Shown here one piece after another: positions 11,971 through 21,998 of a stretch of DNA of 38,360 nt. The notes under the pieces were generated by a model. It saw nothing but the letters and a program-made list of their open reading frames with translations, was not told where the DNA came from and searched no databases. This stretch comes from Granulicella sp. (GTDB lineage Bacteria; Acidobacteriota; Terriglobia; Terriglobales; Acidobacteriaceae), in assembly GCA_003142215.1 (NCBI GenBank), contig PLOT01000152.1:1-38360 (forward strand). The letters are read 5' to 3'. A program made the position numbers and the translations under genes. Within the stretch, counting starts at the first letter, position 1. Each line of letters starts with the position of its first letter.

Positions 11971-12318
11971 TCAGGCAAAGACGATGGACATGGAGCCGTG
12001 TACTTTAGGCGTTGGCGTCACGGTAATTTCAACGTCCTGGCCGAGGGCCGTCAAAAAATCAATCAGCCTACCGATGGAGAAGTTGCCCGCACGATTGCGG
12101 GTCAGGGCCGAGACGTGGGGCTGCTGAATCCCCAGTATCTTCGCGGCCTCCGCCTGGGTCAGGCCACGGCTCTTGAGGATGAGAGCAATCTGTAGAGTCA
12201 GCCGCGCCTTCATCAGCTCCCGATCTGCATTCGGCAGGCCAAGATCGGCAAAGACGTTGCCGCTGCCTTCGATGACTTCGTCTGACTTGGATACTTTGCG
12301 AGTGGTCTTCATAGTCAA
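11971..12318 (-). CDS. XRE-family HTH antitoxin (HigA-like, DUF4065/HTH_37-type)
   Basis: LTQAEAAKILGIQQPHVSALTRNRAGNFSIGRLIDFLTALGQDVEI; overlaps the upstream toxin gene by 4 nt. Confidence 0.85.
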   Translation of the reverse strand: MTMKTTRKVSKSDEVIEGSGNVFADLGLPNADRELMKARLTLQIALILKSRGLTQAEAAKILGIQQPHVSALTRNRAGNFSIGRLIDFLTALGQDVEITVTPTPKVHGSMSIVFA

Positions 12319-12677
12319 CTCAACCTTTCCTTGTAGTGGCGAACGGCTGCGGCCAGCCGCTGGCGAATCAGGTCGATCTCAGCCTTCGGGGTTGCAATCC
12401 CCGACTTCGACTTCTTCTGGAAGGCGTGCAGCACATAAACCGTATCGCGAAGACGAATGGTGTAGACCGCCCGCCAGGTGTTGCCGTCGAATGGAGCGAC
12501 GATCTCCATCACAGAATGTCCGCCAAACCCCTTCAACGGCTTGGCTGCGGGATCGGTTTCGCCCTTCTGTGCTGCATACAGAGCGTGGCCGACATCGCGG
12601 CGTACCTCCGGCGGAAAGGACTGTAGATCCCTCTGCGACGATCCGACCCAACGGACGATTTTCAACCCTTCATCCAT
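12315..12677 (-). CDS. RelE/HigB-like (Gp49/DUF891-type) toxin
   Basis: LPxEVRRDVGHALYAAQKG, AKPLKGFGGHSVMEI, WRAVYTIRLRDTVYVLHAFQKKSKSGI; track start 12692 overlaps the inverted repeat, so ATG at 12677 is preferred. Confidence 0.85.
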   Translation of the reverse strand: MDEGLKIVRWVGSSQRDLQSFPPEVRRDVGHALYAAQKGETDPAAKPLKGFGGHSVMEIVAPFDGNTWRAVYTIRLRDTVYVLHAFQKKSKSGIATPKAEIDLIRQRLAAAVRHYKERLS

Positions 12678-12678
12678 T

Positions 12679-12702
12679 ATACAAATATACATCTATTTGT
12701 AT
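12679..12702. promoter_or_regulatory. Inverted repeat ATACAAATA-TACATC-TATTTGTAT, candidate toxin-antitoxin operator
   Basis: Perfect 9-bp arms directly upstream of the toxin start. Confidence 0.65.
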
Positions 12703-13704: not shown

Positions 13705-16700
13705 ATGTCGAAAGAAATCTATATCTCCAGCACGCCTCACGAGACGCGTCTGGCCATCGTCGAAGACGAAGCCCTCACTGAAATGTATTACGAGCGCGAG
13801 AACGAGTACACGCTCGCCGGATCGATCTACAACGGACGCGTCACGCGCGTGCTGCCGGGCATGCAGTCGAGCTTTGTGGAGATTGGCCTGGAACGCGATG
13901 CATTCCTTTACATCACGGATTTCATGGAAGAAGCTCCGGACTCGGAGGAGTTCGACACCACCCCGGCCGGAGACCGCGCAGCGCGCGCGCCACGCCTGAC
14001 CAATGGCGAGCAGGCCACCGATGCGGGCGGACACGGCGAATCCGGCGGACGCGGCGGCGAGCGTGGCGGCAGAGGACGGCGCGGCGGACGCGACCGCGAT
14101 CGGGACCGCAATGCTGAACGTCCGGGAAGCCCCGACGCAGCAGCGCAACAGCAGGACGGCGGGCGCGGCGATGTTCCACACGGCGATGCTCCACGCGGCG
14201 ACGCTGGAGACACCAACGCAGACAGTGCGGCCCCCATAGAGTTCAACGAAGGCTCCGAGATTGGCGAAGGCGCACCCGGCGCCGATGGAAGCCGCCGCTG
14301 GCGCGGCCGTCGCGGACGCCGTCGCGGGCGCGGCGCCTCTGGCCAGCCAGGCGATCAGCCAGGTCAGGCGGGCGACTCGACGCAGGAGAACTCCGATGCA
14401 CCGGCCTACCCCGCAGCTCAGGGCTACTCCGAAGTGCCGGGCTACGACGACGACAACTTATCGTACGAGCGCGATTCCATCCATGAGATCGACGGCGAGG
14501 CCAGCCAGCCATCCACATCTTCTTCCGACCGCAGCCAGGACAGCCCGCGCAGCAGCGACAGCCCACGAGACAACAGCTCACGAGACAATAGCCCGCGCGG
14601 CGACCGCTCCGGCGATCGCTCCGGCGACCGCGGACGACGCGACAACGGACGCAGCCGCGACGGTCAGCAACGCGACCCCCAGCGTGGAGACCAGCGCCCG
14701 CCGCGCACACCCCGAGGATTCGAACCCTCGCGCAACCTCTACGGCGTGGACAGAGACAGCGGGGAGACCAGCGGCACCGGCCCCATCTCCAATGCCTATC
14801 CCGATGAGATCGAGGCTGGCGCCGAGCCGATCATTCTGCCCGGCGAATCGCTCTCCAAATACCGCAAGGGCGGCGAAGAGCAGCCCGAGCCCAAATCCGC
14901 GGAATCGACATCGAGTACGCTCGCTCCGCCGGCCAACCTCTACACTCTTGCGGCCGGCTGGGACGGCGGCGCAACCCTGCCCGGCGAGACGCTCTCGAGG
15001 CGCACCCCGGCCAACTCGCGCCCAGACTCGAACTCCGGCTCACGCCACGACTCGCGTTCCGACTCGCGTGAGGGACGCAACCGGCCTTCGCGCAACTTTG
15101 AGCGGGAGCCGAGACGCGATTCCCGCCCTGGCCGCAACGACCGCGGAGAGGGCCGGCGCGACAGCCGCTCCGACCTTCGCAACGACGCTCCCATTGCAGC
15201 CGTAGCCGTCTCCCAGCAAGGCTTCCAGCCCTCCACCCCTGAGGTAGCACAGGGATTCGACCAGCCCAATGTCGCAGAAACTCAAGCAGCCGAAGTGCAC
15301 GAAGCACCCGAAGCCACTTTGCCGGTCGTTGCGGAGCCGGTAGCTGTCGCGGCACCGGAGCCAGTAGTGGTTGCCTCGCCGACGCCAGTCCAGCAGGTTG
15401 AAGTGGAGTACGAGCCGGAGGACGCATCGGCCTCCCACCGCGTCGATCCCATGCCGCCCAGCAAGTTTCGCCAGAGCGCGCCAGCTATCGAACCGGTGCT
15501 GGAGCCACAGGCCGAACCGGCAGCCGAAGTCGCCGCCGAGCCACTGGCGGACGAGCCCGTAGCCGTTGCCCACGACATCACCTCGATCACTCCCGCGGGC
15601 GAGATGTTCTCCGAGCCAGTCGAAGCCCAGCCCGCCGCTGAACCCCTCCCGCAAGGCGAGGCCGGCTTCGCTCCTGGCCCTGGCCAACTCGCCGAAGAGG
15701 TTCTCGACGTGGAGGATTCCGCAGCCCCGAGCATCCATGCCAGTTCCATCGAGGAGATCGACGACCTCGACGAAGAGACGGTGGAGGGCGCGGCCGATCT
15801 GGGCACCATGCTGCGCGAGATGTCCATCGACCAGCTCACTCGCACCTCGCCCCAGGTGGATGAAGAAGACGAGATCGACGACGACGAAGACTTTGAGGAA
15901 GACGACCTCGACGAAGAAGACCTCGACCAAGAAGACGAGGAGGACGAGGAAGATCAGGACGAAGATCAGGACCAGGAAGAGCGCGACGGCGCAGAGCAGA
16001 CGGACAAGCTCGACGAGCAGGCGGCCCGCACCGGCAACGCAGCCGATGCCGAGTTCCACGAGGCGCAGTTCGGCCAGCCGGAAGAGGAGAACCGCACCGA
16101 GGAGCAGACGGGCGCTGCCGACAGTTCCCATCAGGAGCGCGGACGCGATGCAGAACGCCGCCCAGGACGTCGCGACGGGCGTCGCGATGGCCGGCGCGGA
16201 CGCAGTGATCGCAACGACCGTCCGCGCAATACCGGCGGCTCGGGCGAACGCATTGGGCGCTTCGGACACGGCGGCCATGGACGCTCGTCCATGCAGACCA
16301 CCAACCTGCCCGCCATCAGCGACCTGCTGAAGCCCGGCCAGGAGATCCTGGTGCAGATCGCCAAGGAGCCTATCGCCAAGAAGGGCGCGCGCATTACATC
16401 GCACATCGCGCTTCCCGGACGCTTCCTGGTCTTCATGCCTACGGTCAACCACACCGGCGTCTCGCGCAAGATCGAGTCGGACGGCGAACGCCGCCGCCTG
16501 AAGGAGATTCTGCTCAGCGAGAAGGGCGACGCCACCGGCGGATTCATCGTGCGCACCGCCGCCGAGGGAGCCACGGAAGAGGAGCTGCGCAGCGACTTGC
16601 GCTTCCTGCTCAACCTCTGGGCCGACATCAAGGCGCGCTCGGAATCCTCTAAGTCGCCCGCGCTCATCTACCACGACCTCAACCTCATCGAGCGCATCCT

Positions 16701-17508
16701 GCGCGATCAGGTCACCGACAACTTCTCCGCCATCTGGGTGGACACCGAGGCCGAGTACGAGCGCGTTCTGCGCTTCCTGCAGCGCTTCCAGCCGTCGCTG
16801 ATCCGCCGCGTCAAGCTCTACCTCAAGGACACGCCGCTGTTCGAGCAGTTCGGCATCACCGAAGAGATCAACAAGGCGCTGCGGTCGAAGGTCTGGCTGA
16901 AGTCCGGCGGCTCTATCGTCATCAACCAGACCGAGGCTCTGGTGGCCATCGACATCAACACCGGCAAGTACGTCGGCAAGACGGCGCGCCTGGAAGACAC
17001 CATCGTCAAGACCAACCTCGACGCCATCCCCGAGATCGTCCGCCAGATCCGCCTGCGCGACCTGGGCGGCATCATCATCATCGACTTCATCGACATGGAC
17101 GAGCGCAAGAACCGCAACCGCGTCATGGCCGCCCTGGAAGACGAGTTGAAGAGTGACCGCGCGCCTTCCAAGGTGCTCCAGTTCAACGACTTCGGCCTGA
17201 TCGCCATCACACGCAAGCGGGTCAAGCAGTCGCTGGAGCGCACGCTCTCCACCACCTGCACCATCTGCGACGGCACCGGAATGGTCAAGTCGCCCATCAC
17301 CGTCTGCAACGACATCTACATCGAGATGCGCAAGATGCACAAGACGCTGGACCGCGGCGACATCATGCTGCGCGTCCACCCGGAGGTCGTCAAACAGCTC
17401 AAGGCATCGGGCGCAAAGTGGCTGCTGGAGATGGAAGAGATGGCGGGCAAAACGATCCTGGTCAAGAGCGACCCGGCCCTCCACCCGGAGCAGTTCGACA
17501 TCCACTAA
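13705..17508 (+). CDS. rne: Rne/Rng family ribonuclease (1267 aa) with a very large low-complexity insertion in the S1 domain
   Basis: N-terminal MSKEIYISSTPHETRLAIVEDEALTEMYYERE...YNGRVTRVLPGMQSSFVEIGLERDAFLY; catalytic part IVIDF-like GGIIIIDFIDMD, zinc-link CTICDGTG; SD AGGAGCAGGAAC before ATG. Confidence 0.95.
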   Translation: MSKEIYISSTPHETRLAIVEDEALTEMYYERENEYTLAGSIYNGRVTRVLPGMQSSFVEIGLERDAFLYITDFMEEAPDSEEFDTTPAGDRAARAPRLTNGEQATDAGGHGESGGRGGERGGRGRRGGRDRDRDRNAERPGSPDAAAQQQDGGRGDVPHGDAPRGDAGDTNADSAAPIEFNEGSEIGEGAPGADGSRRWRGRRGRRRGRGASGQPGDQPGQAGDSTQENSDAPAYPAAQGYSEVPGYDDDNLSYERDSIHEIDGEASQPSTSSSDRSQDSPRSSDSPRDNSSRDNSPRGDRSGDRSGDRGRRDNGRSRDGQQRDPQRGDQRPPRTPRGFEPSRNLYGVDRDSGETSGTGPISNAYPDEIEAGAEPIILPGESLSKYRKGGEEQPEPKSAESTSSTLAPPANLYTLAAGWDGGATLPGETLSRRTPANSRPDSNSGSRHDSRSDSREGRNRPSRNFEREPRRDSRPGRNDRGEGRRDSRSDLRNDAPIAAVAVSQQGFQPSTPEVAQGFDQPNVAETQAAEVHEAPEATLPVVAEPVAVAAPEPVVVASPTPVQQVEVEYEPEDASASHRVDPMPPSKFRQSAPAIEPVLEPQAEPAAEVAAEPLADEPVAVAHDITSITPAGEMFSEPVEAQPAAEPLPQGEAGFAPGPGQLAEEVLDVEDSAAPSIHASSIEEIDDLDEETVEGAADLGTMLREMSIDQLTRTSPQVDEEDEIDDDEDFEEDDLDEEDLDQEDEEDEEDQDEDQDQEERDGAEQTDKLDEQAARTGNAADAEFHEAQFGQPEEENRTEEQTGAADSSHQERGRDAERRPGRRDGRRDGRRGRSDRNDRPRNTGGSGERIGRFGHGGHGRSSMQTTNLPAISDLLKPGQEILVQIAKEPIAKKGARITSHIALPGRFLVFMPTVNHTGVSRKIESDGERRRLKEILLSEKGDATGGFIVRTAAEGATEEELRSDLRFLLNLWADIKARSESSKSPALIYHDLNLIERILRDQVTDNFSAIWVDTEAEYERVLRFLQRFQPSLIRRVKLYLKDTPLFEQFGITEEINKALRSKVWLKSGGSIVINQTEALVAIDINTGKYVGKTARLEDTIVKTNLDAIPEIVRQIRLRDLGGIIIIDFIDMDERKNRNRVMAALEDELKSDRAPSKVLQFNDFGLIAITRKRVKQSLERTLSTTCTICDGTGMVKSPITVCNDIYIEMRKMHKTLDRGDIMLRVHPEVVKQLKASGAKWLLEMEEMAGKTILVKSDPALHPEQFDIH

Positions 17509-17667
17509 ACCAAACGCCGCTATAAAGTGATCCAAATGACGCAATGGAGCGTCTTATCTACCAACAAGTAGATTAGGTTTCGGACGTAAAGACCGGCACA
17601 ACAAACTCAGGCGATTCGGGTTCAAATGCTCGAAGGACTTTGCACTCAAAAGGGAGTCATTAAAGAT

Positions 17668-18769: not shown

Positions 18770-19189
18770 CTACGCAAGCCATGGATTGATGAGCTTGACG
18801 CCGCAGTGTTCAAAGTCGTCGACGTTCCTCGTAGCTACCGATGCGCCAGCCGCCAGAGCAATCGATGCAATCTGCGCATCGAGCGGTGCCATTGGAGTGC
18901 CGCGCCGCCGCTTATCCGCCAGCAGCCGCGCGTAGTGCCGCGCGGAGGCATCATCAAAGGGAAGTACCCTGCCACCAAGCGCAGTCTGAAAAATGATGCG
19001 AGACAATTCGCTGAGCCGCTCGCGGCGCTTGCCGTGAGGCAGCAGTTCCAGTCCGTAGAGGACTTCGGCAAGCGAAACAGACGTCGTAGCGAGAGAGCTG
19101 GGCTCTTGCCCAAGAAACCACGCCGATACGGTTGGGTCGGGCCGTTCCTTGCTCAGCTCGGAGATGACATTGGTATCGACGACGATCAC
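18770..19189 (-). CDS. PIN-domain toxin (VapC/FitB-like)
   Basis: MIVVDTNVISELSKERPDPTVSAWF...DAQIASIALAAGASVATRNVDDFEHCGVKLINPW. Confidence 0.93.
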   Translation of the reverse strand: MIVVDTNVISELSKERPDPTVSAWFLGQEPSSLATTSVSLAEVLYGLELLPHGKRRERLSELSRIIFQTALGGRVLPFDDASARHYARLLADKRRRGTPMAPLDAQIASIALAAGASVATRNVDDFEHCGVKLINPWLA

Positions 19190-21202: not shown

Positions 21203-21628
21203 CTATTCCGGGAGACGATCTTCATACTGAGCCAGAAAATCCTTGGGGTTGATGACGAATACATGCGAGATTGTCTTGAAGTACAGATGGGAGAAGTGGT
21301 TCTTGTCTCCGGTAATTAGATAGTCGGCGCTGGCACCGATCGCAGTGGCCAGTATCTGCCGATCTTTTGCAACCAGTTTGACATGCAGTGGAATGAGACG
21401 AACATCCGAATCGCTAACGATTTCCATCTGCGAAAGAAGGTTCATCAGTCGCGCCTCGTGATCGGAAGATCTAATATTTCTCGTGATTTCACCAATGACA
21501 TATTGCGAGACCACAAGCGTGACTCCGTGAAGCCGCCAGAGATCAAGAAAATCGGAGTCATCTTTGAGCGATGCCGAGAACAGGACGTTCGAATCCAGAT
21601 AGACGCGCAAGTGAGTTCGATCAGGCAC
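21203..21628 (-). CDS. PIN-domain protein (putative toxin)
   Basis: LRVYLDSNVLFSASLKDDSDFLDLW...AKDRQILATAIGASADYLITGDKNHF. Confidence 0.85.
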   Translation of the reverse strand: MPDRTHLRVYLDSNVLFSASLKDDSDFLDLWRLHGVTLVVSQYVIGEITRNIRSSDHEARLMNLLSQMEIVSDSDVRLIPLHVKLVAKDRQILATAIGASADYLITGDKNHFSHLYFKTISHVFVINPKDFLAQYEDRLPE

Positions 21629-21998
21629 TGCGCTCCTCTTGAAGTAACTCCATCCGCCGTCGCTTCAGATGCGCACGCCATTCAGATTGCGCTGGCAATC
21701 CGTCGCGATGGTTCGGCTCCAGTCCCTTGATCTGCGTAGGGTCGACACCCATCTGCAAGACATCCGGAAGATTTCTGTCCCATTCTTCCTTCGTCATCGA
21801 GTTGATCAGGATGAAGTACGCCGTCTCTTCCGGCGACCAGACCTCCGGCTCGTAGACGAACGCTGGCCGAATGCGAATCTCGCCATCCCTGGCCTCGGTC
21901 ACCAGCAGCGATCCATCCCCCAGCCCAAACTGCTTGCGCAGCTTCACCGGCAGCACAATCGTGCCGCGCTTGCCCATCTTGATCGTGGTCGTCGCCAT
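21621..21998 (-). CDS. SpoVT/AbrB-family antitoxin
   Basis: MATTTIKMGKRGTIVLPVKLRKQFGLGDGSLLVTEARDGEIRIRP; overlaps the PIN gene by 8 nt. Confidence 0.9.
   Translation of the reverse strand: MATTTIKMGKRGTIVLPVKLRKQFGLGDGSLLVTEARDGEIRIRPAFVYEPEVWSPEETAYFILINSMTKEEWDRNLPDVLQMGVDPTQIKGLEPNHRDGLPAQSEWRAHLKRRRMELLQEERSA

Follow-up and report, generated by a model that had tools for sequence, protein, structure and literature searches.

A large, predicted disordered insert with a class-conserved motif in the S1 domain of RNase E/G from Terriglobia (Acidobacteriota)

Results

An RNase E/G gene with a divided S1 domain

The window analyzed here is a stretch of 38,360 nucleotides from a draft genome of Granulicella sp. 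(contig PLOT01000152.1). Downstream of mreC-mreD-mrdA-rodA, its forward strand carries an open reading frame (13705-17508) for a 1267-aa protein of the Rne/Rng ribonuclease family. A HigA/HigB-like pair (HTH_37 and Gp49; 11971-12692, reverse strand) lies between rodA and this gene. The window also has two PIN-domain genes on the reverse strand (18770-19189 and 21203-21998), the latter adjoining a small ORF that looks AbrB-like by eye; from their sequences, both PIN loci are probably toxin-antitoxin modules of the VapC type.

In profile searches the protein matched Pfam PF10150 with 338 bits (aa 903-1173; cut-off 25.5) and NCBIfam TIGR00757 with 472 bits (cut-off 326). The RNase G equivalog profile PRK11712 scored 479 bits, below its curated threshold of 594, its match being split by the insert. 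We found one RNase E/G match in this draft genome, which is 83.7% complete and has 5.6% contamination; the closest named relatives are Granulicella MAGs, and such names are the basis for speaking of the class as Terriglobia. The crystal structures of E. coli RNase E (2BX2) matched two separate parts of the protein (aa 5-75 and 867-1197, using phmmer), and when the intervening segment was removed from the query, both parts aligned to RNase E as a single continuous domain.

The key residues of the enzyme were invariant in 46 homologues: the catalytic aspartates D1083 and D1127, the 5'-sensor residues R950 and T951, the Zn-link (CxxC) cysteines C1185 and C1188, the KGAR lysine (K893), and two S1 aromatics preceding the insert, which we take to be the counterparts of E. 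coli F57 and F67. Judged by these conserved residues, the RNase E/G is catalytically intact. The protein begins at the first strand of the catalytic domain and ends about 80 aa past the Zn-link, and we did not find a large noncatalytic region at either terminus. At its C-terminus, the catalytic region is followed by a short domain of the RNase E/G thioredoxin-like type (PF20833, aa 1184-1266; 23.0 bits, under the 26.8 cut-off), and there is therefore no C-terminal scaffold; the first-pass annotation had likewise seen the protein end just past the catalytic region.

Position, composition and predicted structure of the insert

The N-terminal strands and the first half of the S1 domain span aa 1-72 (13705-13920, ending in DAFLYITD in the 2BX2 alignment). 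They are followed by a 798-aa segment (aa 73-870; 13921-16314), after which the second half of S1 resumes at aa 871 with ISDLLKPGQEILVQ, leading into the 5'-sensor, the DNase I-like catalytic domain, the Zn-link and the short C-terminal domain (16315-17508). An insertion of about 790 aa had been proposed at 13930-16297, which was right to within a few residues. Since the same loop has 27-37 aa in uninserted Acidobacteriota homologues, about 765 of the 798 residues are extra. The insert sits between the columns of F67 and of the KGAR lysine, a placement made by alignment columns and not residue by residue against the Caulobacter structure 4OXP.

Charged residues make up 34% of the insert, and its basic residues are arginine rather than lysine (95%). 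The composition profile agreed with the order of blocks proposed initially: RG/Arg-rich, R/S/D-rich, AEPV-rich, acidic, and again Arg-rich. The first Arg-rich block, RRWRGRRGRRRGRG (aa 197-210; 14293-14334), is a probable RNA-binding segment by its sequence, and its RGRRGRRRG string (aa 200-208) recurs exactly in the majority of the other genera that we tested from the family. The AEPV-rich block (aa 513-672; 15241-15720) has 55-72% A+E+P+V per 40 aa and includes ASASHRVDP (aa 574-582), partly conserved in the family. Next come a predicted helix, ADLGTMLREMSIDQLTR (aa 697-713, 15793-15843; AlphaFold helix 694-711, with a local rise in pLDDT), and the acidic block (aa 720-759; 15862-15981), with 70% D+E in aa 713-752. 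The second Arg-rich block, recognized by composition, covers aa 818-841 (16156-16227), and the positive net charge at this end of the insert is conserved in relatives. The insert closes with a conserved exit junction, SMQTTNLPAISDLL (aa 862-875; 16288-16329), which runs into the start of the S1 second half; its SMQTTNLPA portion (aa 862-870) is conserved within the family. Short tandem repeats occur in the insert, for example a 15-bp unit in the DNA of the acidic block (15879-15936, identified using TRF), and such arrays suggest that the loop grew by repeat expansion.

AlphaFold assigned pLDDT values below 50 to almost the entire insert, for the window protein as well as for a shorter, 777-aa homologue, in agreement with the disorder proposed at the outset. 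Neither Pfam, NCBIfam nor AlphaFold revealed a known fold in the insert, and Foldseek with the homologue model returned significant E-values for RNase E cores only. The S1 domain itself was poorly rebuilt in both models (the S1 first half had pLDDT below 50), so that the models are silent on how the loop exits the barrel; the window model has a helix (aa 871-874) at the start of the S1 second half.

The charge patterning read from the sequence at first inspection was borne out, as the segregation of charges in the insert exceeded that of composition-matched shuffles (z = 7.9). Strong segregation is kept across 30 relatives of the same family (z = 4.7-9.0), and alternating charge patches promote phase separation of the RNase E of Caulobacter and Sinorhizobium (PMC12691583). 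By analogy, the insert might thus be primarily a condensate driver similar to those of BR-bodies, in which alternating blocks of charge, together with Arg-rich regions, bring enzyme and RNA together in clusters and any linear motif is secondary. We consider this unlikely: segregation weakens outside the family of the window (z = 1.4-6.6 in f2-f7), whereas the motif described below persists throughout, and is therefore the better-conserved feature.

The insert is a constrained coding region shared across Terriglobia

To examine the distribution of the insert we used a class-wide sample of 121 genomes from 58 genera and 12 family codes. The gene was found in 120 of the 121 genomes; of 121 reading frames, 119 had at least 762 aa, and both shorter frames lie at contig ends. 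Alignment across Acidobacteriota mapped the insertion as an enlargement, in Terriglobia, of the loop that is 27-37 aa long in uninserted homologues. All readable Terriglobia genes had the enlarged loop, including those in closed and isolate genomes; the complete genome of Terriglobus roseus DSM 18391, for instance, has a 777-aa insert.

Two of the entries examined stand apart. One Acidobacteriaceae genome (G273) has two full RNase E/G genes, on contigs C26 and C71, both bearing the motif; a strain mixture is possible. A record titled Verrucomicrobia bacterium Tous-C9LFEB (L170, CAJCIP010000005.1) encodes an RNase E/G that is typical of Acidobacteriaceae and has the LPGES motif, and probably either its title is wrong or the bin is mixed.

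Between close relatives, the insert had dN/dS values of 0.09-0.32, compared to less than 0.08 for the core, and most differences were at the third codon position, indicating that the insert is translated, constrained and fast-evolving. An 834-aa ORF overlaps the gene in antisense (15040-17544, reverse strand). Synonymous diversity in the insert was about equal to or above that of the core, which does not point to another frame under constraint; we therefore rejected an overlapping antisense gene.

These data bear on two ways of dismissing the insert. The first is that it reflects an assembly error, a frameshift or a spliced element (intein-like or bypassed), to which the incompleteness and contamination of the draft genome lend some weight. 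We rejected it, and regard it as extremely improbable, since closed and isolate genomes share the architecture, the frame is continuous and under coding constraint, and Pfam detects neither an intein nor any other domain in the segment. Neither of the two outcomes named in advance as fatal to the observation, an assembly artefact or a known domain, came about. The second is that repeat growth expanded the loop in a largely neutral way that the enzyme tolerates, with no dedicated function. Low complexity, short tandem repeats, variable length and a dN/dS relaxed relative to the core are what this would produce. Against it, dN/dS is far less than 1, the motif core is present class-wide, the Arg blocks and the exit junction are conserved, and no readable Terriglobia gene has lost the loop, so that we see little chance of its being correct.

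A single origin and graded loop lengths

The insert is old and of single origin: on a tree built from the core, with the insert excluded, inserts of at least 100 aa required one change, located within Acidobacteriota. The suggestion that this region evolved independently was thus upheld. Loop lengths are graded. Uninserted homologues have 27-37 aa, a neighbouring group has 41-91 aa, and two further groups have 145-314 aa and 299-553 aa; among Terriglobia, the family of the window has 468-949 aa and the others 308-536 aa. Since this was a quick tree with several weak branches, the stepwise order of growth is only suggestive. The graded lengths across Acidobacteriota nevertheless provide a natural series for studying scaffold evolution.

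A linear motif conserved across the class

Within the variable sequence of the insert, one motif stands out: LPGES[L/I]xKY(R), present in the window protein as LPGESLSKYR (aa 378-387; 14836-14865) within the peptide PIILPGESLSKYRKGG. In the form LPGEx[L/I]xK[Y/F], it occurred in each of the 43 inserts that we read directly from seven families of Terriglobia, whereas 33 loops or inserts from other Acidobacteriota lacked it; shuffled inserts never contained it (0/8600). Searched for as a DNA pattern, the motif gave matches in 36 of 41 relatives, always at the RNase gene. These matches lay on the same contig as the catalytic match and just upstream of it, except in one genome (G030), where both motif matches were on a separate contig, which we attribute to a broken gene.

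In the class survey, 107 genomes had the full motif inside the RNase gene. One further gene was split over two contig ends, the motif being on the piece that holds the N-terminus. Eleven exceptions have an altered end (e.g., LPGESLSRY, LPGESLARH, LPGESLANY) after an intact LPGES[L/I]. The LPGES[L/I] core was thus present in 119/119 testable genes, one gene cut by a contig end being excluded; the motif had been defined on part of the sequences counted, and the survey added many genomes not used for its definition. A weaker second copy (aa 424-432), in the segment WDGGATLPGETLSRR (aa 419-433; 14959-15003), is conserved within the family and kept in most Acidobacteriaceae genera tested.

We considered copies of the motif in other proteins as a clue to a partner network. 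In the 121 genomes, no LPGES[L/I]xK[Y/F] was encoded outside the RNase gene, the 14 other matches being different, and this line was dropped. In the AlphaFold models, pLDDT rises locally at the motif (aa 376-387 in the window protein, aa 179-189 in the 777-aa homologue), and a short helix marks the end of the motif; the rise may reflect, at least in part, the alignment depth there.

Other RNA-decay enzymes

PNPase and RNase J were encoded in 13/13 genomes sampled, the draft genome of the window having only fragments below the cut-offs. RNase Y, which serves Bacillus as its scaffold endonuclease, was lacking from 28 of the 30 genomes whose inserts exceed 250 aa, and present in 12/12 genomes with loops shorter than 50 aa. 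Despite these strong counts, we did not accept that RNase Y loss and insert growth are independently correlated: there were too few independent changes, and in independent pairs the association with insert length was not significant, which makes it a clade-level pattern. Terriglobia, like the majority of other long-insert Acidobacteriota, lack RNase Y, which amounts to a swap of decay endonucleases at the level of clades. The pattern is compatible with RNase E/G being the main decay hub, without demonstrating it.

Discussion

Comparison with known RNase E systems

The first-pass annotation had contrasted this protein with Caulobacter, whose scaffold is C-terminal. S1 inserts have precedents, however, one of them in Caulobacter itself. 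Charged, predicted disordered inserts of about 50-150 aa in the S1 domain are known from alpha-proteobacterial and plant (chloroplast) RNase E, and the catalytic-domain fragment of Caulobacter that includes its S1 insert binds RhlB (PMC4245959). The inserts described here are likewise within S1, charge-rich, predicted disordered and variable in sequence. They differ in length (145-949 aa, 798 in the window protein), in belonging to an Acidobacteriota lineage and in carrying the LPGES motif, which we did not find in the literature on the Caulobacter and plant inserts; Caulobacter, furthermore, also has a C-terminal scaffold, which the window protein lacks. S1 inserts as such were already known; those described here are set apart by their size, their phylum, the motif conserved throughout the class and the lack of any scaffold at a terminus. 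In an older survey, based on few genomes, the RNase E/G of the Fibrobacteres/Acidobacteria group was given as 511 aa long with no degradosome potential (PMC3071783). We found no description of the present arrangement in Acidobacteriota in the literature searched, which left out most subscription journals, and the decay machine built around this RNase E/G seems to be unstudied.

In composition, the insert resembles the C-terminal region of gamma-proteobacterial RNase E, which has Arg-rich and AEPV-rich stretches, tandem repeats and lineage-specific microdomains (PMC4435900): both are disordered or predicted to be so, with similar blocks and repeats and with short motifs specific to clades. The gamma-proteobacterial hub, however, follows the catalytic domain, and its sites for RhlB, enolase, PNPase and the membrane are mapped, whereas the region reported here lies in S1. 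Cyanobacterial RNase E also has a clade-conserved motif of nine residues in a variable noncatalytic sequence, in that case a C-terminal, RRRRRRSSA-type nonapeptide that binds PNPase (PMC11964227); the Terriglobia motif is in S1. The PNPase-site sequences of E. coli, Caulobacter, Anabaena and P. aeruginosa (PMC11964227) bear no resemblance to LPGES[L/I]xKY. The BR-body RNases E of Caulobacter and Sinorhizobium share with the insert a region that is disordered, or predicted to be so, with segregated or alternating charge patches; theirs is C-terminal, and its condensation has been demonstrated.

A possible noncatalytic hub inside the S1 domain

The explanation that we favour, and consider moderately probable, is that the insert is a noncatalytic hub of the degradosome type, built into the loop that follows the F67-containing S1 strand instead of at the N- or C-terminus. 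Its Arg-rich blocks would hold RNA beside the S1 channel; the acidic stretches and those rich in AEPV would serve as charge-patterned spacers, perhaps with a part in clustering; and LPGES[L/I]xKY would dock a protein partner. This partner would plausibly be another RNA-decay enzyme, because the genomes encode PNPase and RNase J, usually without RNase Y. A degradosome function is attributed to the insert by analogy. The class-conserved motif gives the scaffold reading originally put forward more direct support than it had, whereas the contrast with Caulobacter on which it drew is incomplete, since S1-domain inserts are already known there.

The main competitor, which we judge rather unlikely, is a gate acting in cis: acidic parts would mimic RNA in the S1/5'-sensor channel, Arg-rich parts would capture the substrate, and LPGES[L/I] would dock on the enzyme's own core or tetramer and set its activity. 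In Caulobacter crescentus (PDB 4OXP), the S1 insert is partly helical and part of it reaches the RNA-binding cleft, where its acidic residues have been suggested to act as RNA mimics, and deletion of the S1 insert of Arabidopsis RNase E lowers activity (PMC4245959); the full motif is also unique to RNase E/G in the genomes searched. However, lengths of up to 949 aa and low complexity exceed the needs of a gate, and the pLDDT of the motif is only just above 50, with no evident docking in the models.

If the insert is a partner-recruiting hub, a broader picture could be drawn, which we offer tentatively and hold to be somewhat less probable than the hub itself: Acidobacteriota would have grown a whole platform in the S1 loop, beside the RNA entry, and in Terriglobia it would engage its partner through LPGES[L/I]xKY, partly replacing the lost RNase Y scaffold. 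The degradosome hubs described so far are terminal parts of RNase E or lie on RNase Y. In this clade, which is abundant in soil, the hub is seemingly inside the RNA-binding domain, and partner recruitment and substrate entry would therefore be physically coupled. The conserved ten-residue motif makes the function of the disordered region approachable by experiment.

A different short motif marks the same loop in a sister clade (f25, f35, f15 and f63). One to three copies of FER[I/V]xD were present in 10/10 of its inserts (L118, L121, L122, L124, L128, L129, L138, L155, L156 and L106), and none in the 43 Terriglobia inserts. RNase E microdomains are known to follow such a lineage-specific pattern (PMC4435900, PMC11964227). 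Sister clades with different docking-type motifs in the same loop are what would be expected of a recruitment platform.
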